Part shown: piece after piece, positions 1 through 64,000 of the stretch
Position numbering within the stretch: position 1 is the stretch's first letter
Layout of the letters: each line of letters starts with the position of its first letter
Origin: Gambelia wislizenii
Taxonomy: Eukaryota > Chordata > Lepidosauria > Squamata > Crotaphytidae
Length of the DNA stretch: 64,000 nt
Direction of reading: 5' to 3'
Assembly (NCBI GenBank): GCA_030847615.1
Contig: JAUMIR010000001.1
Coordinates: 162,289,001-162,353,000, forward strand
Translations under genes and position numbers: made by a program
Notes under the pieces: generated by a model
The model's input: the letters and a program-made list of their open reading frames with translations, nothing else
Database searches by the model: none
What the model was told of the DNA's origin: nothing

Positions 1-1265
1 GACACTCCAAGTATCATGAAGCTGCTTCCAACAGGGAAGACATCTTTACTGATGATCAGTATTTTGTGCATTTTTACATTAAATTAACCGAGTTCTCATT
101 AAATAAATAGCAACAGCACCAATTAAAACAAATGCTGTCTCTGTCCTTGGATAATTTGGGGGAGTGGGGAGTGTCAGACTAGATAAAAAGACCTAAAAAA
201 AGAACTTCTTAATATTAAAGCTGAAAGTTTAAAGAAATGAGACATTCTACAATTCTTAGCAGCAGAAATAAGAAAGGTAAAGATGCAAGAAAAGGTTCTC
301 TTTTTACTTTGATATAGTTGAATTAATAACTAAGAAGTCATTGCAAACTAAAATAAGTTCTCAAGAAATACAGTCCAATGGATGAAAAGAAAGGTGGCAG
401 AAATGTTCTGAAAGCCAGATTGCACTTCAAACAAGATGTGATTTTATGGGCTGTGTGTCTCAGATACCGTACTTGGTGGGTTCAGAAAAGTGCTATGAAT
501 TGATGCAACTGCATCCAAGAGAAGGTTAGGAGGAAGAGATGAAGAAAGAGGGAGATCTTCTGGCAATATTAAGGACTAGAATTTACTGCTTTAATACATG
601 GTTTTTCCACTGTACTCCAACACAAGAAGATAATAACTTGACACTCAAAGGAAAGATTCTGATCAGTAAACAAAATGAGAGATTTGAAATTCAGGAAGGA
701 AATCTCTTTTCCCTTTTCCTTAACAAAATAGTGGCTAAGAGTAGGAAGAGAGGCTGCATTTTACGCTAAGGGATTACAGTCTAAATCTCTGCAGTCCAAA
801 CTCAGGTGATGTGCTGTTCAGACAGAGGGACTCAGCTATCTCATGCCGCAGGCTTCCATATTGATGTAGACCATGTACCCACCAATAGTTATATTTCTTT
901 CTTCCCTACATTTAAGAGTAAATTGGTAGAAGCAGGACATGCAGTTCTGTTTTAAGTCTATCATCTTATATTGATGTATAGGTTTCAATTGTTCTGAAAT
1001 ACTTTGAACAGTCTCAGTAATTTTACATTGCTTTCTCATGTGTATTCTGTCCTGAGATCTTGTGTGATATAGGGCAAGATATAAATAATTTCATAATTTT
1101 TTAAAAAAAAATTAAGAAGCCAAAATCTACAGATAATTAACACAAATATTATATAGAAAAGGTGTTAGACAGGTTTTATTTTTCCAATTAAGCAATTGTT
1201 TGGCATCCAGAGCTTATTCAAAAATGGACATTGTTAACTTACTAATTTTACTATTTACTACTTAC
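1..1265 (-). other. MEI4: Presumed MEI4 intron, no other feature seen
   Basis: This AT-rich stretch lies 3' of the MEI4 exon on the minus strand. It starts with a consensus GTAAGT donor at 1265-1260. I see no second conserved exon, no coding block with family resemblance and no clear repeat. The short open frames here have no recognisable composition or motif. Intron status is inferred from the donor. Confidence 0.5.
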
Positions 1266-1508
1266 CATTTTTGACACTTAATTCTGAAGTTTTGCTCAGG
1301 AGGAGCTGCTGCCTTAAATGAAGAATTTCAGCTTCTAACATTTCAATTCTTGATTTCCACTTAAAACCCTGTCCAGATACTATCTTGGCCAGGTGCTCTG
1401 CATATTCTTTGCTGCTTTTATCTGGTGGCTTGGAGCGGATAACAGCTAAAGCTAGGGCCAACTGTGATGTTTTCAAGTACCATGTCACATCTTCTTTATG
1501 TTTTATTT
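1266..1508 (-). CDS. MEI4: MEI4 internal coding exon (meiotic double-strand-break protein)
   Basis: The minus-strand translation contains WYLKTSQLALALAVIRSKP followed by DKSSKEYAEHLA and a charged stretch with EMLEAEILHLRQQLLLS. This closely matches the N-terminus of vertebrate MEI4, which begins with a WYL(R/K)TS.LALALA.IRSKP block. MEI4 works with REC114 (and the associated IHO1) on meiotic chromosome axes to promote SPO11-dependent double-strand breaks in germ cells. The exon is bounded by a pyrimidine-rich acceptor ending CTTCTGACAG (AG at 1510-1509) and a donor reading ATG|GTAAGT (GT at 1265-1264). It is 243 bp, starts with two bases of a split codon and ends with one, so it keeps frame. 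Mammalian MEI4 has its start Met just before the WYL block; here that position reads KHKEDVTWY with no in-frame ATG inside the exon, so an upstream coding exon is needed (see 20471-20540). The C-terminal part of MEI4 is not in the window. The frame is intact, which argues for a live gene rather than a pseudogene. Confidence 0.85.
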
Positions 1509-1737
1509 CTGTCAGAAGATAAAACAAAACAGAAAAGCAATATCAGGGTTCTTTTTGCTAATAAAAAATATTTTGCATATTTCATTTATTTAGAAGAAAT
1601 ATTGTGGAAGGAGATAGTTTTCATAGGTTTGTTGAGGCATCAGATCAGTCAAAAGATGAGCCACTCAAAGTGAGGCTTATCCTTGGAAAATTAAATTTAA
1701 AGAAAATAGATTTATAAAGCAAGATTCCCACCCCTCT

Positions 1738-4165: not shown

Positions 4166-4213
4166 TATTAGATTTATTGGTAAAAATTATTATTATTATT
4201 ATTATTACTACTA

Positions 4214-4262
4214 CCATATATTCCGGCGTATAAGACAACTGGGCGCATAAGATAATAAGGTT
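4214..4262 (+). mobile_element. Left terminus of CCGTATATTCCGG-type TIR element (fragment)
   Basis: After a TA (4212-4213) the sequence reads CCATATATTCCGGCG and then TATAAGACAACTGGGCGCAT. This is the terminal repeat shared with the complete elements at 39000-39689, 51048-51730 and 61620-63498. The body is replaced at about 4262 by a SINE and I find no matching right end, so it is a broken copy. Confidence 0.7.
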
Positions 4263-18251: not shown

Positions 18252-18757
18252 CAGTAGCACACCCGCATCTGTGGGAGATTAGTTCCAGGGGCACCCGTGG
18301 ATAGCGAATTCCGCAGATAACAGTGAACACCATTCTGGGGGGGGCATCCTGGGGAAAGGGGGGCAAGTTTGCTCTTCCGCCCCGTTGTGGCGGCGATCGC
18401 GGAGGGGAAGGGGATGAGGCCAGTTCGCTTCTCTGCCTCCTTCGCCCTTCGCGCATGGCCCCACCATGGCGGTGATCATGGGGCAAAGGGGGAAGGGGAC
18501 GAGACCAGTTCACTCCTCCGCCCCTTTCCCCCTTGGCCCTGCCACGGCAGCAATCGTGGGGCAAAGGGGGAAGAGGACGAAGCCATTTGATCCTCCTCTT
18601 CCCTTCACCCCTGTGATCGCCACTGCGGCAACAGGAGCCCTCCCAGGGGAAGGGACAGGGGAGGTAAGATCCCTCCCCCCTCCCTCCCTCCCCCCATCAC
18701 CAACCGCAGATAACTGAATCCGCGGTTGATGAATCAGCAGATATGGGGATGCTACTG
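18252..18757. mobile_element. Tigger-like MITE, CAGTAGCAC subtype, 506 bp
   Basis: It starts CAGTAGCACACCCGCATC and ends GATATGGGGATGCTACTG. TA precedes it, but the right flank reads AA. The GC-rich core holds about three units of a ~95-bp degenerate tandem repeat (GGGGCAAAGGGGG...GACGAGACCAGTTC). A second member, in opposite orientation and with perfect TA flanks, is at 36633-36994. Open frames in the core are repeat artefacts. Confidence 0.8.
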
Positions 18758-19085
18758 AAGTTCAAGACATGGCAACCAGATTGTTTACTGGCACACCTAG
18801 GAGTGGTCATATTACACCAATATTGAAATCACTCCACTGGCTGCCAGTTAGTTTCCAGGCAAGATACAGAGTGTTGGTTGTTACCTTTAAAGCCCTACAC
18901 GGTTTGTGTCCAGGTTACCTGTGGGATAGCCTTCTCCCATACTGCCCCATACACGCAGGTCCTCTGGGGGACATTTATTCCAGTCAGCCAGGACTAGACT
19001 GTCAATGGTCACCCAGAGGACTTTTTCTTCAGCTGCCCCTAGGCTCTGGAATGACCTTCCGGAAGAGACTTGACAGCTGCGTATA

Positions 19086-19316
19086 CAGTTGTCCCTCCGT
19101 ATCCACAGATTTGGTATCCACGGATTTAAGTGTTCACGGCTTGAAAATATTCTTTAAAAAAATAGTAATCCAAAAAGCAAACCTTGATTTTGCCATCTTT
19201 AATAAGGGATACCATTTTGCTATGCCATTGCCTATAATGGGATTTGAGTATTCACAGATTTTGGTATCCACAGGGGGTCCTGGAACCAAACCCCAGCAAA
19301 TATGAAGGGACAACTG
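19086..19316 (+). mobile_element. Tigger-like MITE, CAGTTGTCC subtype
   Basis: It starts CAGTTGTCCCTCCGTATCC and ends GAAGGGACAACTG with TA on both sides. The inside reads GATTTGGTATCCACGG and GCTTGAAAATATTC. It is inserted in the L2-like LINE. Closest relative: 20868-21086. Confidence 0.9.
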
Positions 19317-30247: not shown

Positions 30248-31170
30248 CTGGGGGTGATCCCATGGTCAGGAATACTAAAAGAGAAGGGACTTCAAGACGG
30301 ATGGGACTTTCTCAAAAGGGAGATACTGAAGGCACAATTTCAAACAGTACCATTGAGGAAGAAAAATGGGAGGTGTCTCAAGAAACCAGGATGGATGACT
30401 AAAGAACTTTCAACGGAGCTAAGTTTTAAACGGAACATGTATAGGAAATGGAAAAGGGGGGAAATCACCAAAGAAGAATTCAAACAGATAGCGAACACGT
30501 GTAGGAGTAATGTCAGAAAAGCTAAAGCGCAGAATAAGCTCAGGCTTGCTAGGGAGGTTAAGAACAATAAAAAGGGGTTTTGGGGGTATGTCCGCAGCAA
30601 AAGGAGGAAGAAGGAAATGATAGGGCCACTACGTGGAGAAGATGGCAAAATGCTAACAGAGGACAGAGAAAAGGCAGAATTACTCAACACCTTCTTTGCC
30701 TCAGTGTTTTCAGAAAAGGAAAAGGGTGACCAACCTGAGGAGAATGGAACAGAGGACACAATAGGGGAAATCCAGCTCAGAATAAGCAAAGAGGTAGTAC
30801 AGGAATACCTTCTTAATCTAAATGAATTTAAATCTCCAGGAACAGATGAACTACATCCAAGAGTATTAAAAGAGCTGGCAAATGTGATCTCAGAGCCATT
30901 GGCAATAATCTTTGCGAATTCCTGGAGAACAGGAGAAGTCCCAGAAGACTGGAGGAGGGCAAACATTGTCCCCATCTTCAAAAAGGGGAAAAAAGAGGAT
31001 CCCAACAATTATCGTCCAGTAAGTCTGACATCAATACCAGGGAAGATACTAGAGCAGATCATTAAACAGAGAGTCTGTGAACATTTAGAAGGCAATGCCA
31101 TAATCACAAAAAGTCAACATGGGTTTCAGAGAAACAAGTCATGCCAGACTAATCTGATCTCTTTTTTTTG
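30248..31170 (+). pseudogene. CR1 ORF2, linker and start of reverse transcriptase (305-aa frame)
   Basis: The 305-codon frame lacks the endonuclease domain, so the insertion is 5'-truncated. It starts in the Lys/Arg-rich linker (GILKEKGLQDGWDFLKREIL) and reaches RT motifs 0-2: ELANVISEPLAIIFANSWRT, then NYRPVSLTSIPGK at about residues 253-265, then HGFQRNKSCQTNLISFF. It stops at a run of eight T followed by GATAAC (31162-31169). Dropping one T would restore reading into the next frame. The copy at 48466 has the same eight-T run. CR1 is the dominant non-LTR retrotransposon of reptiles and birds and replicates by target-primed reverse transcription. Confidence 0.95.
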
Positions 31171-32366
31171 ATAACGTTACCAGCTTGGTAGATGAAGGGA
31201 ATGCTGTGGACATCGCATACCTTGATTTCAGTAAGGCCTTTAACAAGGTTCTCCATGACATTCTTGCAAACAAGCTTGTAAAATGTGGGCTAGACAAGTT
31301 AACTATTCAATGGATTTGTAATTGGTTGATCGGCCGAACCCAAAGGGTTCTCAGCAGTGGCTCCTCTTCGTCTTGGAAAGATGTGACCAGTGGGGTGCCA
31401 CAGGGTTCTGTCCTGGGCCCAGTGCTATTCAACATCTTTATCAATGACTTGGATGAGGGAATTAGGGGCATACTTATCAAATTTGCAGATGACACCAAAT
31501 TAGGAGGAGTAGCTAATACCCTAGAGGACAGGATCAAAATTCAGAATGACCTGGATAGACTGGAGAGCTGGGCCAAAGCTAACAAAATGAAATTCAACAC
31601 GGAGAAATGTAAAGTACTGCACTTAGGGCGAAAAAATGAAATGAATAGATATACGATGGGGGAGACCTGGCTGAACGAGACTACGTGCAAAAGAGATCTA
31701 GGAGTCCTAGTAGACCACAAGTTGAACATGAGTCAACAGTGTGATACGGCAGCTAAAAAGGCCAATGCAATTTTGGGCTGTATCAATAGAAGTATAGTAT
31801 CTAGATCAAGGGAAGTTATAGTGCCGCTCTATTCTGCCTTGGTCAGACCTCACCTAGAATACTGTGTCCTGTTCTGGGCACCACAATTCAAAAAGGATAT
31901 TGACAAATTGGAGCACGTCCAGAGAAGGGTAACTAAAATGGTGAAAGGTCTGGAAACCATGCCTTATGAGGAGAGACTCAGGGAGCTGGGTATGTTTAGC
32001 CTGGAAAAAAGACAGTTAAGAGGAGATATGATAGCCCTGTTTAAGTATTTGAAGGGATGTCACGCTGAGGATGGAGCAGGCTTGTTTTCTGCTGCTCCAG
32101 AGACTGGAACACGGAGCAATGGATGCAAGCTCCAGGAACAGAGATTCCACCTCAACATTAGAAGGAACTTTTTGACAGTAAGAGCTGTTCGGCAGTGGAA
32201 TGCACTCCCTTGGAGCATGGTGGGGTCTCCTTCCTTGGAGGTCTTTAAACAGAAGCTGGATTGCCATCTGTCGGGGATGCTTTGATCAAGATTTCCTGTG
32301 TGGCAGGGAGTTGGACTGGGTGGCCCCTCGTGGTCTCTTCCAACTCTACAATTCTATGATTCTATG
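31171..32366 (+). pseudogene. CR1 ORF2 reverse transcriptase to C-terminus and 3' tail (366-aa frame)
   Basis: The frame runs from 31185 (TTG; no real start codon) to 32285. RT motif A reads AYLDFSKAFN at residues 11-20, with Asn where the second Asp normally stands; motif B reads SGVPQGSVLGPVLFNIFIND (69-88); the catalytic FADD is at 100-103. The C-terminus reads [18 protein letters not shown], then TMPYEERLRELGMFSLEKR, and it ends with SPSLEVFKQKLDCHLSGML. The 3' UTR has TTGGACTGGGTGGCCCCTCG and ends in ATTCTATG units at 32366, the typical CR1 terminus without poly(A). Apart from the frameshift it is open over 2 kb, so it is fairly young. Confidence 0.95.
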
Positions 32367-36004: not shown

Positions 36005-36632
36005 CGAATTTGAGGCATCACAGGTGGGACTCTCACATACCCCCCACCTCTTAGGGTAACACAGTCCTCTACATGATATAGCCTGAGAAACACTATTATA
36101 TCCCAAACTGAAACGGAGGGTACTCTTAATCTCATGAGAAGCAGTGGGTATGGTGGCATCAGCAAAAATTACATTTGAAATATGTTTAGGGCTTAGCTGA
36201 GACAATGATTCCCTTTTGAGAGCATTTCTATTTTGAGAACAGAATGCTCAGAGTTTGAACTTTGGAAGAAAAACAATTGTATCCATCAGAAACTGTTATG
36301 AGGCTTGTCAGAAATGTACCAGAACTGATTGGAATGAACTGGACTGGTAAGCAAAAACAAATACAATCATCAGTTTGGAAATGAGCTAGACTGTTAGGCA
36401 AAAACAAGGGAGTCATTAATTTGGAGCATTAAACTCTGCCTTAGACTCTGGAAAAACAGGGAAAAATCTGAATAATCCAAAAGCTCGATAACACCTGGGA
36501 ACAAGAGAAGAGAGAAGTGTTTAAAGGTTGTGGTGGGAAATCCCAATCTGTGAGAATCCCTTTTGAACATGAAAAGGCTTTTGTGTCTTCCAGTGCTTTT
36601 TTTTTTTTTTTTTTTGGCCTGGACAGCTAGTA

Positions 36633-36994
36633 CAGTAGCACCCCCGTATCCGCTGATTCGCCAACCGAAGATTCAATTATCTGCAATTGGTGATGGCTGG
36701 GTGCAGGAAGGGGAGAGGAGAGATCTTACCTCCCCCATCCCTTCCCCTGGGAGGGCTCCTGTTGCCACAGCGGCGACTGTGGGACAAAGGGAGGGGGAGG
36801 AGCAAACTGGCCTTGTCCCCTTCCCCCTTCCCCCCTGTGATTGCCACCACGGTGGGGCCATGGATGAAGGGCGAAGGGGGCGGAGGAGCAAACTCATCCC
36901 CTTTCTCCTGGGATGGCATTCACTATTATCTGCAGAATTCGCCATCCATGGGCATCCCCATAACCAATCCCCCATGGATGCGGGAGTGCTACTG
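36633..36994. mobile_element. Tigger-like MITE, CAGTAGCAC subtype, 362 bp
   Basis: Starts CAGTAGCACCCCCGTATCC and ends GCGGGAGTGCTACTG, with TA on both sides. The core is GC-rich with one unit of the repeat found three times in the 18252 copy, and runs in the opposite orientation. Overlapping open frames on both strands are by-products of GC content. Confidence 0.85.
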
Positions 36995-37577: not shown

Positions 37578-38075
37578 TACTTCCAGGTAGAAAAATGGAA
37601 TCTTATTAAAATAAATCTGTTTAGCTATGTGTACCGAAAAGATTGTCTGGATGCTACAAAAGGACTATAATCTGAGTGAGATGAAGTGGGAAACTGATCC
37701 TTAACTTGCCACTGAAATTCCTGTGAAGAACTTCAGTGAAGTTCCTGTGAAGATTTGTGGGAGCCGGGATGGGGAGACAATGACAACGATTCCTGTTTTT
37801 TTTTGACTGGATCTTAACACCTCTTTATTTGCATGAGGCTGTAATAATCATATCCATTAGATGCCAAGGAACCATTCAAAAGAACTCTCAGGATGCTAAG
37901 TGACTGTTTATTTTTACTTTTTTTAAAAAATATTTTTATTATACATTACAAATATTTCATACATTAAACAGGGGGGAAATCAAGAAGATTGTCCATCATA
38001 ACACATAATTTCATATCACATAATATCCTTCTAATCTATTCATTTCCTTCAATTTAATATTTGCAAGTACATATA

Positions 38076-38406
38076 GGAGATTTTCACACGCCGAAAATAT
38101 TGCCTCCAGAAACCGGGACAGAAATATTTCTGTCCTGGAAGCAGCGCCGCGGTTCGCACGCTCACCTCCCTCTTCCGTTTTTCCGTCGTCCTCGCTTTGG
38201 GTTTTTCCCTCCCTCTTCTGGAATATTTTACTAACGGGAGTTTGCCGTTAATAAAATATTCTGGAAGAGAGAGGAAAAAACCCAAAGCGAGGACGACGGA
38301 AAAACGGAAGAGGGAGGTGAGCGTGCGAACCGCGGCGCTGCTTCCGGGACAGAAATATTTCTGTCCCGGTTTCTGGAGGCAATATTTTCGGCGTGTGAAA
38401 ATCTCC
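38076..38406. mobile_element. 331-bp near-perfect palindrome, foldback MITE
   Basis: The two arms of about 160 bp are reverse complements with only a handful of mismatches; the loop is about 7 nt (around 38241). Ends are GGAGATTTTCACACGCCG and CGGCGTGTGAAAATCTCC, flanked by ATA on both sides. Because of the symmetry the same peptide (KYFCPGFWRQYF) can be read from both strands, so no gene is implied. Arms have CpG-rich segments (GCAGCGCCGCGGTTCGCAC). The high arm identity implies recent insertion or gene conversion between arms. Confidence 0.9.
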
Positions 38407-38999
38407 ATAGTCAAACCATTCCCGACAGATGGTCATCCAAGCCTCTGTGTTTTTTTTTTATTCTTTTTTTTTCCAGTTACAGTTAAACAGCTAAGTGACT
38501 GCTTATTCTGGCTCTTTTAAAAATGCATAAGATATGTCACTTTCCAAGTCTTGCCATATTCTTTCAGTTGGTGGTCGAAGCCATGTTCAAGCAAGCTATT
38601 TTTAAAAAAATATAATGAGCAGGTTAGGAATTTGAAACAATTTCCTTTATTCCACATAACTGTCCTTTATTCCATAGGTACCAGCATCTCAGTTACACTG
38701 CTTGATAATCCAGACATACTGACATGCCCCTCAGATCATGCTGGTCTCCACATAAGAAACCCTAGCTTTCCATGCTTCATATTGTCCATAGTGCAAAAAG
38801 GAGAGCCCAGCAGTTAATCATAGGTCTTCTCTACATACAAGGGGTGGGGGGAATACAAACACGTCTGAAAAGGCAGGTGTTCACAATGATGCAAACTGCC
38901 TAAATGGCCAAAAGAGCCCCCCTAAACTCCCCATGACCCCCTGGCCACCACAACTGATTTACTCATGATTTTTAATGTATCGCCACCAATTTTATTTTA

Positions 39000-39689
39000 C
39001 CGTATATTCCTGCATACAAGACTACTTTTTAACACTTGAAAATCTCCTCAAAAGTGGGGGGGGGGAAAGGTCTTATACCCCAGTAGATCTTTTCCCCTGC
39101 TGTGAGAATGATTGAAGTGTTAAATGGTCTGGGCAGTTTTCCCAGCAGATCCTTCCTCCTGCTGTGAGAATAACTGCTTTGCCTTTGAAGAGTTAAATGG
39201 CCCTCCATTTAGCTCAGGAGAGTCAAAATGATGTTTCTTTTCAGGACAAGTTAGCCTAAAATTAGAATTTCTGGATTTAAACTTACCATTTTGCATCAAG
39301 TTTTGTCTATGGTGAAATTCTCTTGTCTGCCAATGTGGCTCTAAAATCATTAATGTGCTCATTCATTAATGTGCTCATTCAAAAATTTGGGATTTGATAG
39401 CTTCATATTAACCAACTTACAGTATTAATGCAACCTTACTTTCCAAAGATTAACACCACAGAGATTTTTCAAAGTATCCCGTGCTTTTTTAGCTGTTCTC
39501 AGTCCTTTAATTTCACAGACTATTCCATCATCTACAGCCACTGAGCTGGTTGGCTGGTGGGGGACAGGCTTTCCGGCCAGGTGGCTGGCTGGCTGGCTGG
39601 CTGGCTGGGGGGGGGCAAACTCTATATTTTAACTTAAAAATGGGGGGTCGTCTTATGCGCCCAGTCGTCTTATACACCGGAATATACAG
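39000..39689 (-). mobile_element. TA-flanked TIR element with gag-like cargo, copy 1
   Basis: Left end CCGTATATTCCTGCATAC and right end GTGTATAAGACGACTGGG-type sequence (plus strand CACCGGAATATACAG) flanked by TA. Length 690 bp. The interior (about 39100-39560), read on the minus strand, gives PHWQTREFHHRQNLMQNGKF and CPEKKHHFDSPELNGGPFNS, nearly the same as the copy at 51048. A 15-bp tandem duplication (CATTAATGTGCTCATT twice, near 39349-39380) is also shared. A (GGCT)n run lies at 39583-39608. No transposase. Confidence 0.85.
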
Positions 39690-39769
39690 TAAAAACCCCA
39701 GTTTCCTGGGGTGTGCACAAGCAATACTTTGTATTTACAAATAAATTAATAAATAAAGTAAAAATCGCC

Positions 39770-40030: not shown

Positions 40031-41375
40031 TGTATTTGTGCAACAGACCCCCCCCCGGATCTTGAAGAATGGTAGATCCGGGGGAGGTGTTTTAATGATG
40101 GGCATGGAGACGAGCGCAGGGGTTGGCCAGGGCGTGGATACGCCCTGGTCAGGAGGAGTCAGGGGCGGGGCTGAGGCAGGGCCTATTTTACCCTTTGCCG
40201 CCCCTGGCTTCCTCCTCTTTTTCCACTGGATCGAAAAGAAGGAGGAACGTCGGTCTACCCTACTTGGTTCAGCCACGAGGGAGAGCTAAGTTGGCTGGGC
40301 TGTTATTGGGATTTTTGTATGATTGGCAGCAGTCCAGCTGTGTGGTTGTTTTATTTCAGTGTAGTTGTGATTGAGTGCTGATGGCTGATTGCTGAATTTG
40401 TCTTTTTAAACGGTGTTGGGTAGCCTTTTCTTTGTTCTCTTTGTTTTCGCCACGTGGTCAAATCCCCCCCACCATCTTCCCCTTCTTTTTCTCCAATTCA
40501 TTTGAACTCTTAATTTGATTCTTAATCAACTCTTCATTTGATTCTTAATCAATTAATTGAACTTTGGATTGACTTTAATTTAATTTTATTGATTAGTTTG
40601 CTTGGATTGTTGGTTTGCCACGTGCCTCCCCTCTCTCCCCCTCCCCTCTCCCGGTGCCCTCCACCCCGCAAGGCCGGCGGGTCTATTCAGGGGGTTCCTG
40701 GGATCCCTCTGGGGGGTTCCCATCGCCCTCCCTCCTCGCCGCTTAGCCTCTCCGTCCGCTCCCCGCCTGGGCTAGTGGCGGCTTGCCACTGATTTCTCCA
40801 GCGGCGGCTTCCTCGCCGCACCCCTCGCCTCGCCGCTTCCTCGCCCATCGGTTCCGGGGGTTCCTGGGGCGCTTCTGGGGGGTTCCTGGGGCTTCCTCCT
40901 CCCACCCCCTCCCTCCTCGCCTCGCCCCTCGCCGCTCAGCCTCGCCGCTCAGCCTCTCCACCCCGCTCCTGGGCAAGCAGCGGCTAGCAGCGGCTTGCTC
41001 CAGCGGCGGCTTCCAGCGGCGGCTTCCTCGCCGCACCCCTCGCTTCGCCGCCTCCTCGCCCATCGGTTCCGGGGGTTCCTGGGGCGCTTCTGGGGGGTTC
41101 CTGGGGCTTCCTCCTCCCACCCCCTCCCTCCTCGCCTCACCCCTCGCCGCTTAGCCTCGCCGCTCAGCCTCTCCGCCCGCTAGCAGCGGCTTGCTCCAGC
41201 GGCGGCTTGCCTCGCCCCTCGCCTGGGCTAGCAGCGGCGCCTCCTCTCCAGGCACAAGTTCGGGGGTTCCTGGGGCGCCTTTTAGCCTTGTCCCTCGTCG
41301 CCGCTCCTTTCTCGCCCCCCCCCCCGCAAGGCCGCCGGTTCGTTTCTGGGGGTTCCGGGGGCAAACGTATTTGTG
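40031..41375. other. 1.3-kb GC-rich block with 215-bp tandem duplication
   Basis: Composition jumps to very GC-rich with many CpG (GCTTCCTCGCCGCACCCCTC). The segment at about 40802-40975 recurs at 41017-41185 (offset 215 bp), including GGTTCCGGGGGTTCCTGG and CTCGCCGCTCAGCCTCGCC. GTATTTGTGCAA occurs at both the left (40031) and right (41370) margins. Open frames on both strands are low-complexity. An unmethylated promoter or captured 5' UTR is possible; no exon is recognised. Confidence 0.6.
40048..40089. repeat. 42-bp CCCCCGGATC mini-foldback, second copy
   Basis: CCCCCCCCCGGATCTTG mirrors GGTAGATCCGGGGGAGG. Its reverse complement aligns over its whole length with 17833-17876, loop included. 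Confidence 0.65.
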
Positions 41376-41459
41376 CAAACGGCCGTTTGAGTGGATTGCC
41401 AATCTTTTGCATTGCGTACATATTATTTTGATCATATAGACAGGACCATAGTGCTGGTC

Positions 41460-45332: not shown

Positions 45333-46671
45333 GGGTGCCCGTTTACATGACAAAAAAACAAAACGAAAAAACCCGAGAAGAATTCATGTTGGACCCTATT
45401 TGTTTACACATATTACAGGCTATTCAGAAGGAGGGGTAGCAAAAAAACCAGTTAACCCATGACTTTCCATCCCTCTATTTTTCCAGGAACTTTTTGGAAA
45501 GTCTGGACAACCCATGCTATTGGTTGTCTGAACAATCAGCAACCATCCCGGGACATGGGCTGAATATTGATTGGTTGGACTTTGGAGGGGGTGGGCTTGC
45601 AAGGGAAGCCTTGCAATTCTTGATGCCAGGCTGGCAGAAGCTGCAGCCAGCTGAGCCTCCTCAGCCTCGTTTAAAGCATTGCTTTCTATTGGAAGAAAAA
45701 GAAGTGGGGATGAAGAGTGGGGTGGGACAGAAAGCACTTAAAACATTGCTTTCTATTGGAAGGAAAGGGAGTGGGGGGAGGAGTGGGGGACAGACAGAAC
45801 TTAAAACATTGCTTTCTATTGGAAGGAAAAGAAGTGGGGGGAAGAGTGGGGTGGGACTGAAAACATTTAAAGTATTGCTTTCTGTTGGAAGGAAAAGAAG
45901 TGAGGGGAGAAGTGGGGGGGACAGAAAGAACTTGAAGCATTGATTTCTAATGGAAGGAAAAGAAGTTGGGGAGAAGTGGGAGGAACAGAAATAATTTAAA
46001 GCATTGCTTTCTATTAGAAGGAAAAGAAGTGGAGGGAAGAGTGGGGAGACAGACAGAACTTAAAGCATTGCTTTCTATTGGAAGGAAAAGAAATGGGAGG
46101 GAGAGTGGGGTGGGACAGAAAGCACTTAAAGCATTGCTTTCTATTGGAAGGAAAAGAAGTGGGGGAGATGGTGGGGGGCAGACATAACTCAAAGCATTGA
46201 TTTCTATTGGAAAGAAAAGAAGTGGGGAGAGAAGTGGGGGGACAGAAGGAACTTAAAGCATTGCTTTCTTTTTGAAGGAAAAGAAGTGGGGGGGGGGGAG
46301 AAGGCCTTGGGGGTCGCTCCAGACTGGCCATCCTGTCTGGCCAGGCTTGGCCATCAACTGGCTCTCAGCTGGCTGCAGCTTCTGCCAGCCGGGCTTTGGA
46401 GGCAGCAGAGAACCCTACAGCGGGCAATATAAGAATGGTGGATCCTGAATTGCCAGGTTTCCCTTGCAAGCCCCTCCCTCCAAGCTCTGACCAATCATAA
46501 TTCAGCTCTGCTGGGAACCCATTCCTGGGATAGTGGTAGGTGTAAACAACAATCATAAAAACCCAAGACTTTTGCTACCCAGGACAAATCGTGGGAACAA
46601 TATGAGACAGATTCGAGATGAGGATATCTCGATTCTCCCTGGGGATAAAAACTGTCATGTAACTGAGCCCC
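45333..46671. mobile_element. 1.34-kb long-TIR element enclosing a minisatellite
   Basis: The ends GGGTGCCCGTTTACATGACA and (reverse complement of the right) GGGGCTCAGTTACATGACA match. Deeper in, GACTTTGGAGGGGGTGGGCT and GCTTGCAAGGGAA on the left mirror TTCCCTTGCAAGCCCCTCCC and CCAAGCTCTGACCAATC on the right, so the arms extend several hundred bases with interruptions. No target duplication is clear. Non-coding. Confidence 0.7.
45671..46300. repeat. Minisatellite, about 10 x 63-66 bp
   Basis: Each unit starts TTAAAGCATTGCTTTCTATT, then GGAAGGAAAAGAAGTGGGG, and ends near GGGACAGAAAGAAC. Ten units with point changes and small indels fill the centre of the surrounding TIR element. The repeat explains the long open frames on both strands (repeated LLSIGRKRSGG and its antisense FPSNRKQCFK), which are not genes. 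Confidence 0.95.
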
Positions 46672-48465: not shown

Positions 48466-49832
48466 AAAATAATTATCGTCTGGTTAGTCCGACATCAATA
48501 CCAGGGAAGGTTCTAGAGCAGATCATTAAACAGAGAGTCTGTGAACATTTAGAAGGCAATGCATTAATCACAAAAAGTCAACATGGGTTTCAGAGAAACA
48601 AGTCATGCCAGACTAATCTGATCTCTTTTTTTTGATAAAATTACCAGCTTGGTAGATGAAGGGAACGCTGTGGTTATCGCATACCTTGATTTCAGTAAGG
48701 CCTTTGACAAGCTTCCCCATGACATTCTTGCAAACAAGCTTGTAAAATGTGGGCTAGACAAGTTAACTGTTCAATGGATTTGTAACTGGTTGACCGGCCG
48801 AACCCAAAGGGTGCTCAGCAATGGCTCCTCTTCATCTTGGAAAGATGTGACCAGTGGGGTGCCACAGGGTTCTGTCCTGGGCCCAATTCTATTCCACATC
48901 TTTATCAATGACTTGGATGAGGGAATTAGGGGCATACTTATCAAATTTGCAGATGACACCAAATTAGGAGGAGTAGCTAATACCCTGGAGGACAGGACCG
49001 AAATTCAAAATGACCTGGATAAACTGGAGAGCTGGGCTAAAGCTAACAAAATGAAATTCAATACGGAGAAATGTAAGGTACTGCACTTAGGGCGAAAAAA
49101 TGAAATGAATAGATATACGATGGGGGAGACCTGGCTGAATGAGACTACGTGCGAAAGGGATCTAGGAGTCCTAGTAGACCACAAGTTGAACATGAGTCAA
49201 CAGTGTGATGCGGCAGCTAAAAAGGCCAATGTGATTTCGGGCTGCATCAATAGAAGTATAGTGTCCAGATCAAGGGAAGTAATAGTGCCGCTCTATTCTG
49301 CCTTGGTCAGACCTCACCTAGAATACTGTGTCCAGTTCTGGGCACCACAATTCAAAAAGGATTTTGACAAATTGGAGCGTGTCCAGAGAAGGGTAACTAA
49401 AATGGTGAAAGGTCTGGAAACGATGCCTTATGAGGAGAGACTTAGGGAGCTGGGTATGTTTAGCCTGGAAAAAAGACGGTTAAGAGGCGATATGATAGCC
49501 CTGTTTAAGTATTTGAAGGGGTGTCACGTTGAGGGTGGAGCAAGCTTGTTTTCTGCTGCTCCAGAGAATGGAACACGGAGCAATGGATGCAAGCTCCAAG
49601 AACAGAGATTCCACCTCAACATTAGGAGGAACTTTTTGACAGTAAGAGCTGTTTGGCAGTGGAACACACTCCCTCGGAGCGTGGTGGGGTCTCCTTCCTT
49701 GGAGGTCTTTAAACAGAGGCTGGATGGCCATCTGTCGGGGATGCTTTGATCGTGATTTCCTGCGTGGCAGGGGGTTGGACTGGATGGCCCTCGTGGTCTC
49801 TTCCAACTCTGCAATTCTATGATTCTATGATA
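48466..49832 (+). pseudogene. CR1 ORF2 reverse transcriptase, second long copy
   Basis: 5'-truncated at NNYRLVSPTSIPGKVLEQ. The first frame ends at SCQTNLISFF with the same eight-T run plus TGATAA (48626-48633) as the 30248 copy. The second frame runs from 48649 to 49749 with intact motif A (AYLDFSKAFDKL), motif B (SGVPQGSVLGPILFHIF) and FADD. The C-terminus is complete, followed by GGGGTTGGACTGGATGGCCC and ATTCTATG units. It is very similar to 30248-32366. Unlike that copy it keeps the SKAFD motif. Confidence 0.95.
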
Positions 49833-50732: not shown

Positions 50733-51047
50733 ATTTTATGCTGCTTATTGAACCTTACTTACATCTACAGGTATGACTGCACTGAAGTGAAAATGGCTGT
50801 ATGTATTCTGGGCACAGAAAACATGAAGTGCAAAGATATGCTGAAAAGCATACCTTCAAGTGTACTTAAGGGGATGCATGTAGCCCTGTTGTTAATGTTA
50901 TCCTCTGAGTATTGATTCACATAATTCTGCCATGAGACTAGGTAAGATTTTGTTGGGCATAAGTGGTTGCCGGAGGAAGGACAGCAATCTCCCTTCTCCA
51001 GCTGAGTCCCACTCCAGGAGAAAGGTGGCATATAAATTACTTACTTA

Positions 51048-51730
51048 CCGTATATTCCGGCGTATAAGACGACTGGGCGCATAAGACGACCCCCCCCCCA
51101 ATTTTTAAGTTAAAATCTAGAGTTTGCCCCCCCTCCCCGTCCAGCCAGCCACCTGGCTGGAAAGCCTGTCCTCCACCAGCCAGCCAGCTCAGTGGCTATA
51201 GATGATGGAATAGTCTGTGAAATTAAAGGACTGAGAACAGCTAAAAAAGCATGGGATACTTTGAAAAATCTCTGTGGTGTTCAATCTTTGGAAAGTAAGG
51301 TTGCATTAATACTGTAAGTTGGTTAATATGAAGCTATCAAATCCCAAATTTTTGAATGAGCACATTAATGAATGAGCACATTAATGATTTTAGAGCCACA
51401 TTGGCAGACAAGAGAATTTCACCATAGACAAAACTTGATGCAGAATGATAAGTCTGAATCCAGAAATTCTAATTTTAGGCTAACTTGTCCTGAAAAGAAA
51501 CATTATTTTGACTCTCCTGAGCTAAATGGAGGGCCATTTAACTCTTCAAAGGCAAAGCAGTTATTCTCACAGCAGGAGGAAGGATCTGCTGGGAAAACTG
51601 CCCAGGCCATTTTACACTTCAATCATTCTCACAGCAGGGGAGTATGATTACTGGGGTATAAGACCACCCCCCCCACTTTTGAAGAGATTTTCAAGTGTTA
51701 AAAAGTAGTCTTGTATGCAGCAATATACGG
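51048..51730 (+). mobile_element. TA-flanked TIR element with gag-like cargo, copy 2
   Basis: Left end CCGTATATTCCGGCG, then TATAAGACGACTGGGCGCAT; right end AAGTAGTCTTGTATGCAGC, then AATATACGG. TA flanks both sides; TACTTA is also shared left and right, but copy 1 supports only TA. The cargo (51190-51640, plus strand) reads GIVCEIKGLRTAKKAWDTLK, NLCGVQSLESKVALIL, then stops, then PHWQTREFHHRQNLMQND and CPEKKHYFDSPELNGGPFNS. The AKKAWDTLKNL..SLESK pattern resembles Ty1/copia-type Gag (UBN2-like). It lies inverted to copy 1. Confidence 0.85.
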
Positions 51731-51887
51731 TACTTAATTGCATTACACTTTTGAACTTTTAGATAGTATTCTGTTTAATGTAATAGCTCTGGCCATTCAT
51801 CCTAATTTTAATCCTAAATTTAATCCTAAAGTCAGTTACAACTGGATTAACAATTACGTGATCCAGGATTAATAGGAGACAGGTTTA

Positions 51888-59676: not shown

Positions 59677-61232
59677 ATAAAGATTTATCAGAGTTTATAT
59701 GGAATGGAAAGAAACCTAGAGTTAAGTGGAAGATATTAACAGACAGCAAAGATAGAGGAGGATTAACATCACCAGATTTGAAAACCTATCATCATGCGTA
59801 ATATTTATCATGGTGCTTAGAATGGATAACTCTGCAAAATGAGAGACTTTTGATATTAGAAGGGTTCAACATTAGATTTGGATGGCAAGCATATATCTGG
59901 CACAATAAAACATTAGTACATGCTGAGTTCAGCCATCATTATATAAGAAGAGCTATCATAAGAGTGTGGCTAAGATACAAAAGGAAACTTTGTCCTAAGA
60001 CACCATGGTGGTTATCAAACCATGAAGCCTTTTCTAAAAAAAGAAAATATTTATAGAGACAAATGGCTAAATTATAGGGATTTACTTTAAAAAGAAGGTA
60101 ATATCTATACCATGAAAACACAGGAAGAACTACAAGATGAAGGGATACAGTGCCATTGGTTTCTATACCGACAATTGGCAGAAAAATTTAAAATAGATCA
60201 AAAATTAGCTGGTATAGAAACAGAAAAATCAGCTCTAGATGAAAAAATACAGGGTGATAAAAAGAAGATACTATCAAAAATCTATCAGATCTTGTTAAGG
60301 TTGAACCTAGAACAAGAAACAATTAAACCTTTTATGATTAAATGGGCGCAAAACTTTGGACGTTCTATAGATCTTAACCAGTGGGAGATATTATGGAATA
60401 ACAATTCATCACATTCAAGTAGTATATATGTGAAAGAAAATATATATAAAGTGATGTTAAGGTGGTGTTTAACACCTAAAAAACTGGCCAAGATCTATAA
60501 GAATACTTCCAATCAGTGTTGGAAAAGTCAAAAAGACACAGGATCATATTACCATGTATGGTGGAAATGCAAAGAAATTCAAAAATTCTGGGTTAGGATA
60601 AATAAGATAATTACAACAACTCTAGAAACAAATTTTCCTTGTAGTCCTGAGATATACCTTCTAAATATGCTGGACAAGGTAAATAAACAAATTCAAAGAA
60701 AATATTGGAGAATCCTAATATACATGTTTACGGCAGCTAGGATTGTACTGGAAAGGAATTGGAAAAAACAGAAAATCCCCATGATCGATGAGTGGCTGAT
60801 AAAATGTTACGACATGTTTGAAATGGATAAATGGACATGTTTATTGAATTATAAGAAGACAGCAAGTGATATATCAGGCTGGCAAATCTTGAACTGCTTA
60901 TGGGAAAGTAAATGGGGAATAAATGCAGAAATAAATATAGACTAAGAAATTATGGTATAAATAAATAAATAGTGCAAGGAAGCAGAAAACAGAGAAAAAG
61001 TAAAAGAGATAACTAACTGGGTTCAAACAGTGGTGAAGAAATAATAGAAATAGGAGAGAGAATCGGAAGTTGAGTACCTGTGTATTTGTCTATGTAACTG
61101 TCAAATGTGTTGTTGAGTTTGATGTATTTGTTTAAGTTATGTTTCTGTCTTTTTTTATGTATGTATGCTGATTGGTTTTGTTTTGTACTTTTTAACTTGA
61201 AGAAAATGAATAAAATATTTTTTTTAAAGACC
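59677..61232 (+). pseudogene. L1 LINE, ORF2 C-terminus, 3' UTR and A-rich tail
   Basis: Upstream pieces read FIWNGKKPRVKWKILTDSKD, RGGLTSPDLKTYH, then a stop, and WWLSNHEAFSKKRKY. The long frame 60112-60945 (277 codons) holds the L1 C-terminal blocks ENIYKVMLRWCLTPKKLA and a zinc-binding-type NQCWKSQKDTGSYYHVWW, KCKEIQKFW at about residues 148-172. The final part is YWRILIYMFTAARIVLERNW. A 3' UTR follows and ends in AATAAAATATTTTTTTT at 61208-61224. The start codon at 60112 is a chance ATG inside ORF2. Strong 5' truncation; immobile. Confidence 0.9.
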
Positions 61233-61921
61233 CCTAAGTCTTTCAAGAAGCACCTTGAGGGCTATAATAATTGAATCTGGTCTTCCCTCCATCTCTTGCT
61301 TAGCAATGAAGGCAGCAGTACCCCTATGGCTTAGACTGATTTTCCATCTAGCTCACTTACTGCTTTTGTCTGCCTGAAAAGAAATGGTAAGTAAGCCCAG
61401 TGCATGGTCTCATAAAATCAATAACTATGTAGTTCAGATTGCGTTTCCCCCAAAATTTCTTCTGTCAAGGGGTTATGTTTGGGATATAGGCTTGCACACT
61501 GCAGATCAAATAATCTACCGTATATTTTGAGCAGTCAGCCATTCCTAATCAGGCAGCACTCATCTTCCACTCATCTCTTTACCAGCTTCAGGGTTACATG
61601 ACTAAATGTTGTTTAAATACTGTATAGTCCGGTGTATGACACGACTGGGTGTATAAGACAACCCCCAACTTTTCCAGTTAAAATAGAGAGTTTTTAAATA
61701 TAGAGTTTTTAAAGCAGGGGGAACTTGGAGGTTTTGCTGGCTGGCTGGGGAGAGCGTTCCTAGCCAAACCTCTGTGCTTTCACAAGGGCTCCTCACAAGT
61801 AGCTGCTGTAAAAGCGCAGAAGTTTGGCTGGTTTAAAATACCATAGAGTTGCCTTGGAGGACCTAGAAAATGGCTAGGGAGGATGCATTTTCTAGGAAGA
61901 CTCTATGGTAGGTGTGCTGTT

Positions 61922-61981
61922 TTGTGTCCTGTGGATAACTTAATCAGTGGATAATGTATCAGTGGATACGGGGCTCTACTG
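61922..61981 (-). mobile_element. Tigger-like MITE terminus (fragment)
   Basis: Plus-strand GTGGATACGGGGCTCTACTG followed by TA is the right end of a CAGTAGAGCCCCGTATCC-type unit. The other end is missing. Confidence 0.65.
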
Positions 61982-62902
61982 TAATCAGATACAGGAAACA
62001 GTATCTTAAACTGGCAGCTAAACCCATGTGTACTCAGAGGTCTGAAAAGTTCTGTTTTTTGGTGGGGGGATTGTGGGCATTGTTTGGTGGTGGTGGATTT
62101 GGGGCTCTCTAGCGCCCCAAAGTAAAAATTGCCAAAGGGCAAGGCCCACGTGGGGGGGGGAGGTTCAAAGAAAAAAAGCATCATAATAGTGAAGCGAGGT
62201 AAAACACGCAGTGGTGCTGGCCACCCAACAGGTAAAGGAGGGCTCGGGTGGGCCTCGTTTTCTGCTGAAATCAGAGGTGAGGCAGGCTGGCTCTACTCGC
62301 TGGAAAGTTTCTGCACCTGCCTTGGGTGCAGGAGAGGAAGCCGAGGAAGAGCAGGGAGCGAGCAAGGGGAGGGTTTGCTTTTTCTCCGTTCTCTTCCACT
62401 CATTGTTGTTGAGAAGAGCCAAGGCGCAGTTTGGTGGCACCAGACACCACCTCCCTTTCTCTCTCCCCTGGCTCCCCGTGCTCGGTGACTCCCATCCCAG
62501 CCCTCCTTCCTCTCTCTGCCTTCGCTCCGCGGTTTGCCGCTCTCCTCAGTTGCCGCAGTCTGCAGCCTGGCATGCTGAGCTCCCCAGTCTCCCTGGAGCC
62601 AGAGCGCGAGAGGCAAGTTTGCCTCATCCACCTCACCTGGAACCTCCGTGGGCGCCTCAGCTTGGCTGGGCTGCCTGGAGCTGGAGAAGTTCTGCAGCTG
62701 GCTTGGGCCGCCTCTGCCTAGCGGGGCGTTGGCCATTGGTCTTCAGAGCCCCTTGCCTTTACTGCCTCCTCCCCTTGCTTTCTTCCTTTCCTTCCTCCCC
62801 CTTCTTCCCCTCACACCAAAGTTTGGGAGGCACTCGGGAAAGTTTGCCCAGCACGCTCTGCTGATTGGAGGCCCCCCCCCAAGTCTCCCTCACAGCAGCA
62901 TC

Positions 62903-63133
62903 ATGGCGAGCAGGCCGGCAGCGCTTGAGGAGGCCACCCATCCCGGGGGACTTAGCCGCTCCTCCGGCTGCCCGGCTCTCCCTTGGAAAAGGGGCAGCAG
63001 GGGATGGTCGCCCCTGTGGGTCGTCTGCATGGCGCTGCTGTGGAGGCTCAGTGCTGCCACCGCCGACTCCAAGTTTTCCATTTTGGATGAGGCACAAGTT
63101 TTAGCCACAGACGAGGAAACTGGCCGCTCACTT
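62903..63133 (+). pseudogene. CACHD1: CACHD1-like first coding exon, captured and frame-broken
   Basis: From ATG at 62903 the frame reads MASRPAALEEATHPGG, then a hydrophobic signal-peptide-like PLWVVCMALLWRLSAATAD, then SKFSILDEAQVLAT. Vertebrate CACHD1 (a type I membrane protein of the alpha2delta/cache family that modulates channels) starts with a signal peptide followed by FSILDEAQVLASQMR.LAA. After the AT codons two bases are missing; the next bases in the shifted frame read QTRKLAA, matching QMR.LAA. Similarity stops at about 63133, with no splice donor. The 700 bp before it is GC-rich and would be the CACHD1 promoter/5' UTR. It lies within the TIRs of the element at 61620-63498, so I read it as captured host sequence. 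The alternative is the resident gene with coincidental flanking repeats; the frameshift and truncation argue against that. Confidence 0.6.
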
Positions 63134-63704
63134 TCCCCCCACACTTTTTCTCTCCTCCCCCTCCCAAATCAAGAACCTCTCCTGTACTTTTTAAAAATCT
63201 TCTTTCTTCCCTAGTGTAGGACTGCTTTTTGAAATCCTCTGTGAAAGCACAGAGGTTTGGCTGGGAATGCTCTCCCAACCAAGCCAGCCAAACCAGAGAT
63301 GGGGCTGCCAGCCTCATCTCAGACTCAGGAATGATGGGAGCTGGCTAGGAAGCTTCCTAGCCACTTCCTGTCCTTCCCAAGTCCAAGATGGGGCTGCCAG
63401 CCCCATCTCGGTCTGTATATGTGGCGTATGAGATGGCCCCCCAATTTTCAGGAGATTTTCAGGGGTTAAAAAGTCATCTTATACGCTGGTTTATACGGTA
63501 GTATCCCATTGAAGGAAGGAAAGGGAAGTTTCACAAAGTTCCTAGGGAATGCTGGCTATGCCTATCTGGCTGTATGGTAGTAGAAGACCAAATTCAATTT
63601 TTTTTTGTTAGAATGTGTAAAATATGCCAATTTAAGATCTAAATACATCGCTTTGCTTCTGAAGAAGACGAGATTTGAAATGTTAAGAGTAAAGGTGATT
63701 ACTA

Positions 63705-64000
63705 ATTAGGGAGCTGGGTATGTTTAGTCTGGAGAGGAGAAGGTTAAGAGATGACATGATAGCCATGCTTAAATATTTGAAGGGATGGCCTACACAAGGA
63801 TGGGGCAAGCTTGTTTTCTGCTGCTCCAGAGACTAGGACACAGAGCAATGGGTTCAAACTACAGGAAAAGAGATTCCACCTAAAAATTAGGAAGAACTTC
63901 CTGACAGTAAGAGCTGTTCGGAAGTGGACTACACTGCCCTATAGTGTGGTGGAGTCTCCTTCTTTGGAGGTGTTTAAGCAGAGTCTGGATGAGCATCTGT
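63705..64000 (+). mobile_element. CR1 LINE 3' part, cut by window edge
   Basis: Reads GGGAGCTGGGTATGTTTAGT, TCTGGAGAGGAGAAGGTTAA, GATTCCACCTAAAAATTAGG and CTCCTTCTTTGGAGGTGTTT. It is 5'-truncated and continues beyond 64000. Confidence 0.9.

Follow-up and report, generated by a model that had tools for sequence, protein, structure and literature searches.

Results

Terminal repeats and genomic setting

The window analysed here is a stretch of 64,000 nucleotides from Gambelia wislizenii (contig JAUMIR010000001.1, forward strand), which contains an exon of MEI4, three complete members of one TIR family and, inside the longest of these, a stretch that resembles the beginning of CACHD1. The features on which the argument rests are the following:

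1261..1542, minus strand: reading frame that includes an exon of MEI4 (PF13971 in Pfam, E 9.9e-32), with acceptor and donor splice sites recognised by eye
38998..39691, minus strand: E2, ordinary family copy of 694 bp without CACHD1 cargo, 93.6% identical to E3 over its full length
51046..51732, plus strand: E3, ordinary family copy of 687 bp without CACHD1 cargo, 93.6% identical to E2 over its full length
61618..63500, plus strand: E1, cargo-bearing TIR element of 1883 bp, with TA at both ends; its ends agree with both ends of E2 and of E3 in the correct polarity
61618..61693, plus strand: left end of the TIR family in E1, 85.5% identical to the left end of E2 and 77.5% to that of E3
63437..63500, plus strand: right end of the TIR family in E1, 82.8% identical to the right end of E2 and 79.7% to that of E3

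Short matches aside, the sequence that E1 has in common with E2 and E3 is confined to the left 76 bp and the right 64 bp, and these ends are just 77-86% alike, a point that counts against the interpretation favoured below. The two tips of E1, each 29 bases long, are identical at 21 of 29 positions. When both strands of the window were scanned for 29-mers matching a family end at 20 or more of 29 positions, seven were found, namely all the ends of E1, E2 and E3 and a solo end at 4212, while three mononucleotide shuffles, scanned on one strand, gave none. All three complete elements start and finish with TA. In Tc1/mariner-type and other TA-target superfamilies TA is the target duplication, but two bases are not enough to demonstrate insertion, and here the TA may be the terminus itself; no duplication longer than TA is visible in the flanks of any of the three. 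The first-pass annotation had described TA-flanked terminal repeats at 61620 and 63498; the repeats are real and can be aligned as TIRs, with the borders now corrected to 61618 and 63500. Since the similarity between the left and right ends of the family extends over just about 29 bp, the matching of left with left and of right with right shows that E1 is a single element rather than a pair of complete insertions. Two independent complete MITEs around an exon were accordingly ruled out, the ends present being one left and one right end of a single family.

As for a transposase, one reading frame in E3 was without a Pfam match. The interior of E3 (51205-51300), and likewise that of E2, is unrelated to the cargo of E1 and holds a stretch that looks coding-like by eye and might be captured or retroelement-derived. 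The solo left end of the family occupies 4212-4252, and about 50 bp further on there is a dispersed repeat common to several other sites in the window.

Inside its tips, E1 has a more complex anatomy:

61730..61784, plus strand: left inner arm, 55 nt, inverted partner of 63240-63294 (89% complementary)
61762..61829, plus strand: imperfect hairpin of the left arm, 73.5% self-complementary
61838..61983, no strand assigned: piece of an apparent second MITE-like family that forms a strong hairpin and has a single recognisable terminus, at 61983, identified from similar sites and its fold
63240..63294, plus strand: right inner arm, 55 nt, inverted partner of 61730-61784 (89% complementary)
63296..63409, plus strand: palindrome of the right arm, 114 bp, 80.7% self-complementary, occurring nowhere else in the window

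The comparison of arm with arm gives a score of 80, which was reached by none of 1000 shuffles of the left arm (maximum 28) and, among 982 pairs drawn at random from the window, by 2, which presumably involve other repeats. It had been claimed earlier that the arms are mirrored over more than 150 bp. The mirroring is indeed real, with an extent of 167 bp in the left arm and 261 bp in the right, but it is patchier than this description implied, consisting of the 29-bp tips and a 55-bp inner block, with unlike DNA separating the two on each side. The inner arms are 1455 nt apart, and it is in this interval that the cargo sits. Moreover, 61806-61831 is a direct repeat of part of the right inner arm (88%). 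The piece at 61838-61983 resembles 18709-18757, 36631-36657 and 19084-19131 in the same window (E 1.7e-4 to 0.007), and as single-stranded DNA the stretch 61835-61984 folds with a z of -5.41. The presence of a piece of another MITE-like family inside E1 suggests that the history of the element had more than one step.

With regard to the genomic setting, the CACHD1 frame of E1 is directed away from MEI4. The repeats of the window would seem squamate in character, and the nearest named relative, Naja naja, is a snake. Elsewhere in the window, 45671-46294 is a minisatellite in which a unit of about 64 bp is present in 9.6 copies, and LINE-like reverse transcriptase reading frames, recognised by eye, are found together with related 3' repeats at 31158-32282, 48622-49746 and 63706-64000; we take these frames to be CR1-like.

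The CACHD1-like cargo

The cargo and its right-hand neighbourhood can be divided as follows:

62355..62897, plus strand: probable captured CACHD1 5' region, upstream DNA or 5'UTR, colinear with the P0003 frame (shuffle test, one of three frames)
62903..63106, plus strand: beginning of the coding part of CACHD1 exon 1, open for 68 codons (MASRPA...FSILDEAQVLA); 47/64 residues identical to P0003 and 41/60 to Naja P0002
63107..63128, plus strand: exon 1 goes on in a different frame (QTRKLAA), and the homology ends thereafter (sequence comparison)
63129..63237, plus strand: stretch between the exon fragment and the right arm, with an origin from intron 1 not supported

The ATG-initiated peptide ending in FSILDEAQVLA that had been noticed at the outset is borne out, its ATG lying at 62903. 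In a search against the PDB, this frame matched chain 8s7c_A, VWFA and cache domain-containing protein 1 (CACHD1), with an E of 2e-7; two further chains, at E 0.24 and 0.57, are unrelated. We presume 8s7c to be the mouse protein. The frame also matched P0002 of Naja naja, which has 82 residues (E 8.2e-10, the sole match among 7 candidates), and P0003, a reading frame of 425 residues on a contig of 3623 bases (E 1.6e-14, 69% identity, the sole match among 71 candidates). Among proteins of about 700-2200 aa, none of 96 candidates matched at E 10 or better. Neither the cargo frame nor the frame at 60091-60942 matched Pfam, Rfam gave no match at the gathering threshold, and of 28 pattern matches in viral contigs none was confirmed, a further search there giving none either. 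These comparisons, together with the matching ends, support the earlier claim that the cargo is CACHD1-derived and lies within a single TIR element; the donor would be CACHD1, as inferred from sequences of other sources than this genome.

How much of exon 1 is present? In P0003 the end of the exon is intact, reading VLATQMRKLAAEELGVVTMQ and then V. Given that 8s7c differs from there on, we take this V to mark the beginning of intron 1. The same exon end is kept in Naja P0002 and in 8s7c and is absent from E1, where a 2-base frameshift follows VLA and homology stops at 63128. For a resident first exon one would look for an intact frame up to the exon end and a splice donor; in E1, neither the remainder of exon 1 nor a donor was found, which makes the fragment unfit to serve as a normal first exon. 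Hence, of the claim that a first exon had been captured, the start of exon 1 stands and its completeness does not. Up to the frameshift there is no clear decay at the protein level, given the 68 open codons and an identity of E1 to P0003 (47/64) that is like that of Naja to P0003 (45/64). We also considered that intron 1 might run on into 63129-63237 and found no support for it, as the scores in the three frames were reached by 1276, 1439 and 353 of 2000 shuffles. A second CACHD1-like stretch was found nowhere else in the window.

Upstream of the ATG, the comparison of 62355-62897 with the upstream part of P0003 gave a score of 144 in the best frame, reached by none of 1000 shuffles (maximum 79), while the other two frames were not significant (183/1000 and 807/1000 shuffles reaching the score). 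In tblastn with composition correction the stretch was found from 62382 on at E 0.026, and with masking it was not listed. On the basis of the shuffle test and the colinearity with the exon, about 0.5 kb upstream of the ATG is probably CACHD1-derived, which would bring the CACHD1-like cargo to a total of about 0.77 kb (62355-63128).

Over 62200-63127 the GC content is 0.62 and the CpG observed/expected ratio is 0.43, compared with a median of 0.20 for windows of 928 bases and with values up to 0.87 at other CpG-rich sites. The usual threshold for a CpG island is an observed/expected ratio of 0.6. The block described in the first-pass annotation as CpG-rich is therefore GC-rich and raised in CpG above the median, but it is not a classical CpG island, and with a ratio below the island threshold the idea of an active mobile CpG promoter is not supported. 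The TpG/CpA ratio is 1.15-1.41 in six of seven segments of the cargo and 0.99 in the seventh; since segments outside E1 reach 1.3, this ratio is not distinctive of decay in the cargo. Both sets of numbers are consistent with a former CpG-rich promoter that is losing its CpGs. Two further sites may be recorded in this context. Namely, 38072-38409 is a near-perfect inverted repeat of about 340 bp, CpG-rich (observed/expected up to 0.87 in a 928-base window) and possibly a young hairpin MITE, and 40100-41400 is a GC-rich block with T-over-A skew that contains near-repeats and in which the CpG count reaches 74 per 928 bp.

Discussion

Our analysis suggests that 61618-63500 is very probably a non-autonomous, TA-flanked, MITE-like TIR element with an acquired fragment of CACHD1, comprising the beginning of exon 1 and, probably, some 0.5 kb of DNA upstream of it. 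The acquisition would have taken place at the DNA level, by template switching in repair or replication in a hairpin-rich TIR element. Namely, we infer this from the position of the cargo between inverted-repeat arms, from breakpoints that lie inside the element, and from the fact that a 5'-only fragment is unlike the usual product of LINE-mediated retroposition; the internal breakpoints and the hairpins of E1 are also what would suit template switching. As judged from its sequence, E1 would most likely be an inert relic today.

Could the exon simply be the resident first exon of CACHD1, with pieces of MITEs at its flanks by chance? A GC-rich 5' region is what one would expect of a resident first exon, and the first intron of CACHD1 is long, so that exon 2 could fall outside the window. 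That said, the exon 1 in E1 is frameshifted and lacks the exon end still present in P0003, in Naja P0002 and in 8s7c, and it is flanked by a left end and a right end of the same family instead of by two complete elements. Furthermore, human MEI4 and CACHD1 lie on different chromosomes, and a window with a MEI4 exon in it would not be expected to represent the CACHD1 locus. The frameshift, the missing exon end and the MEI4 exon led us to reject a resident locus, and we consider this explanation extremely improbable. Another scenario would have the CACHD1 fragment arrive as a retrocopy or a segmental duplication, with two MITE ends coming to flank it later. Compatible with it, the exon fragment comes without an intron that could test splicing, and the homology to intron 1 on its right is not significant. 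Retrocopies, however, are typically 3'-anchored, and LINE-mediated retroposition usually leaves no 5'-only fragment; a 5'-only fragment accompanied by about 0.5 kb of upstream DNA is unlike a retrocopy of this kind. Also against this scenario, the flanks of the cargo are two halves that match as parts of a single family, and their inner arms pair with each other across it. We hold such an order of events to be very unlikely.

If, then, E1 is a single TIR element that acquired CACHD1 sequence, it is still to be asked whether the acquisition happened where E1 now lies. Capture in place, which is a special case of our preferred explanation, would mean that a resident MITE was broken, that the gap was filled with CACHD1 sequence and that no transposition followed, and we regard it as quite conceivable, if only tentatively. 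It follows the gap-filling model of Tan et al. (2021). In the main text of their survey, most of the single-copy Pack-TIRs of animals are inferred to have arisen by gap filling, and the multicopy ones by template switching with subsequent transposition (PMC8277862). The breakpoints of E1 are internal and hairpins lie near both arms, as capture in place would suit. On the other hand, 160 of the 281 unique cases in that text lie at most 15 kb from their parent (PMC8277862), whereas here the 61.6 kb on the left hold no second CACHD1-like stretch, and the gene that neighbours E1 is MEI4. This argument from distance is weak, since the other cases of Tan et al. are more distant or on other chromosomes (PMC8277862) and the scope here extends up to 64,000. 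Transposition, for its part, is slightly favoured by the distance that seems to separate E1 from the parent, but this too is weak evidence, as just 59.8% of the 281 unique cases are on the chromosome of the parent (PMC8277862). E1 might also be one copy of a mobile, amplified squamate family that would have carried the CACHD1 promoter region and signal-peptide start to many sites and would seed chimeric transcripts near other genes. This reading, which we think unlikely, draws on an analogy, in that multicopy Pack-TIRs of animals are described in the same text as tending to capture GC-rich DNA (PMC8277862) and the cargo of E1 is GC-rich.

By its anatomy, E1 fits the documented class of Pack-TIRs as an additional example. 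The main text of Tan et al. reports 370 Pack-TIRs in 55 of 100 animal genomes, including 38 in the alligator and 25 in the western clawed frog, with TcMariner elements accounting for 115 of the 370 (PMC8277862), and in this light the earlier remark that such capture is rarely documented in vertebrates was too strong. Their definition, as given there, calls for two flanks that each cover 10 bp or more of the termini of one and the same TIR element, for a unique parental copy of at least 90% identity in the same genome, for a parent not flanked by transposable elements, which excludes segmental duplication, and for the absence of a retrocopy (PMC8277862). E1 has 76 bp of such termini on the left and 64 bp on the right, in a family defined from the copies in the window and not from a consensus library. 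As in the Pack-TIRs of the main text, a host fragment is enclosed by the left and right ends of a single TIR element; what differs is that the cargo, at about 0.77 kb, is longer than the class median of 224 bp (PMC8277862) and includes a start codon and probably promoter-proximal DNA. Exonic and 5'UTR cargo as such is known there, an example being 291 bp of the CAPSL 5'UTR in the frog element hAT-N8_XT (PMC8277862). With the Pack-MULEs and other Pack-TYPE elements of plants, E1 shares the design of a non-autonomous TIR element with a gene fragment and, with Pack-MULEs, which are described as favouring GC-rich DNA (PMC8277862), a GC-rich cargo. However, Pack-MULEs have long TIRs and a target duplication of about 9-10 bp (PMC8277862), whereas E1 has a TIR of about 29 bp, TA termini with no longer flanking duplication, an animal host and one cargo-bearing copy in the window. 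The Ssk-FB4 element of Drosophila, as presented in the same main text, likewise captured a 5' upstream region and coding DNA between TIRs, but it holds almost the whole gene, is multicopy and is transcribed (PMC8277862), whereas E1 is a broken fragment. None of the words CACHD1, Anolis and reptile appears in the main text of Tan et al. (PMC8277862). In the literature searched, we found nothing on a CACHD1 exon and transposition, no squamate DNA transposon with a captured gene fragment, and no match for Pack-MITE.

What E1 offers is a clear vertebrate case of a DNA transposon that carries the start of a first exon, with cargo-free relatives within the same 64 kb. It provides a concrete locus at which to ask whether a gene fragment was captured in place or moved by transposition, and to follow the fate of a GC-rich promoter region after its capture. 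Finally, if the chimera were multicopy, it would join a short list, the main text of Tan et al. giving four multicopy Pack-TIRs in reference genomes (PMC8277862).
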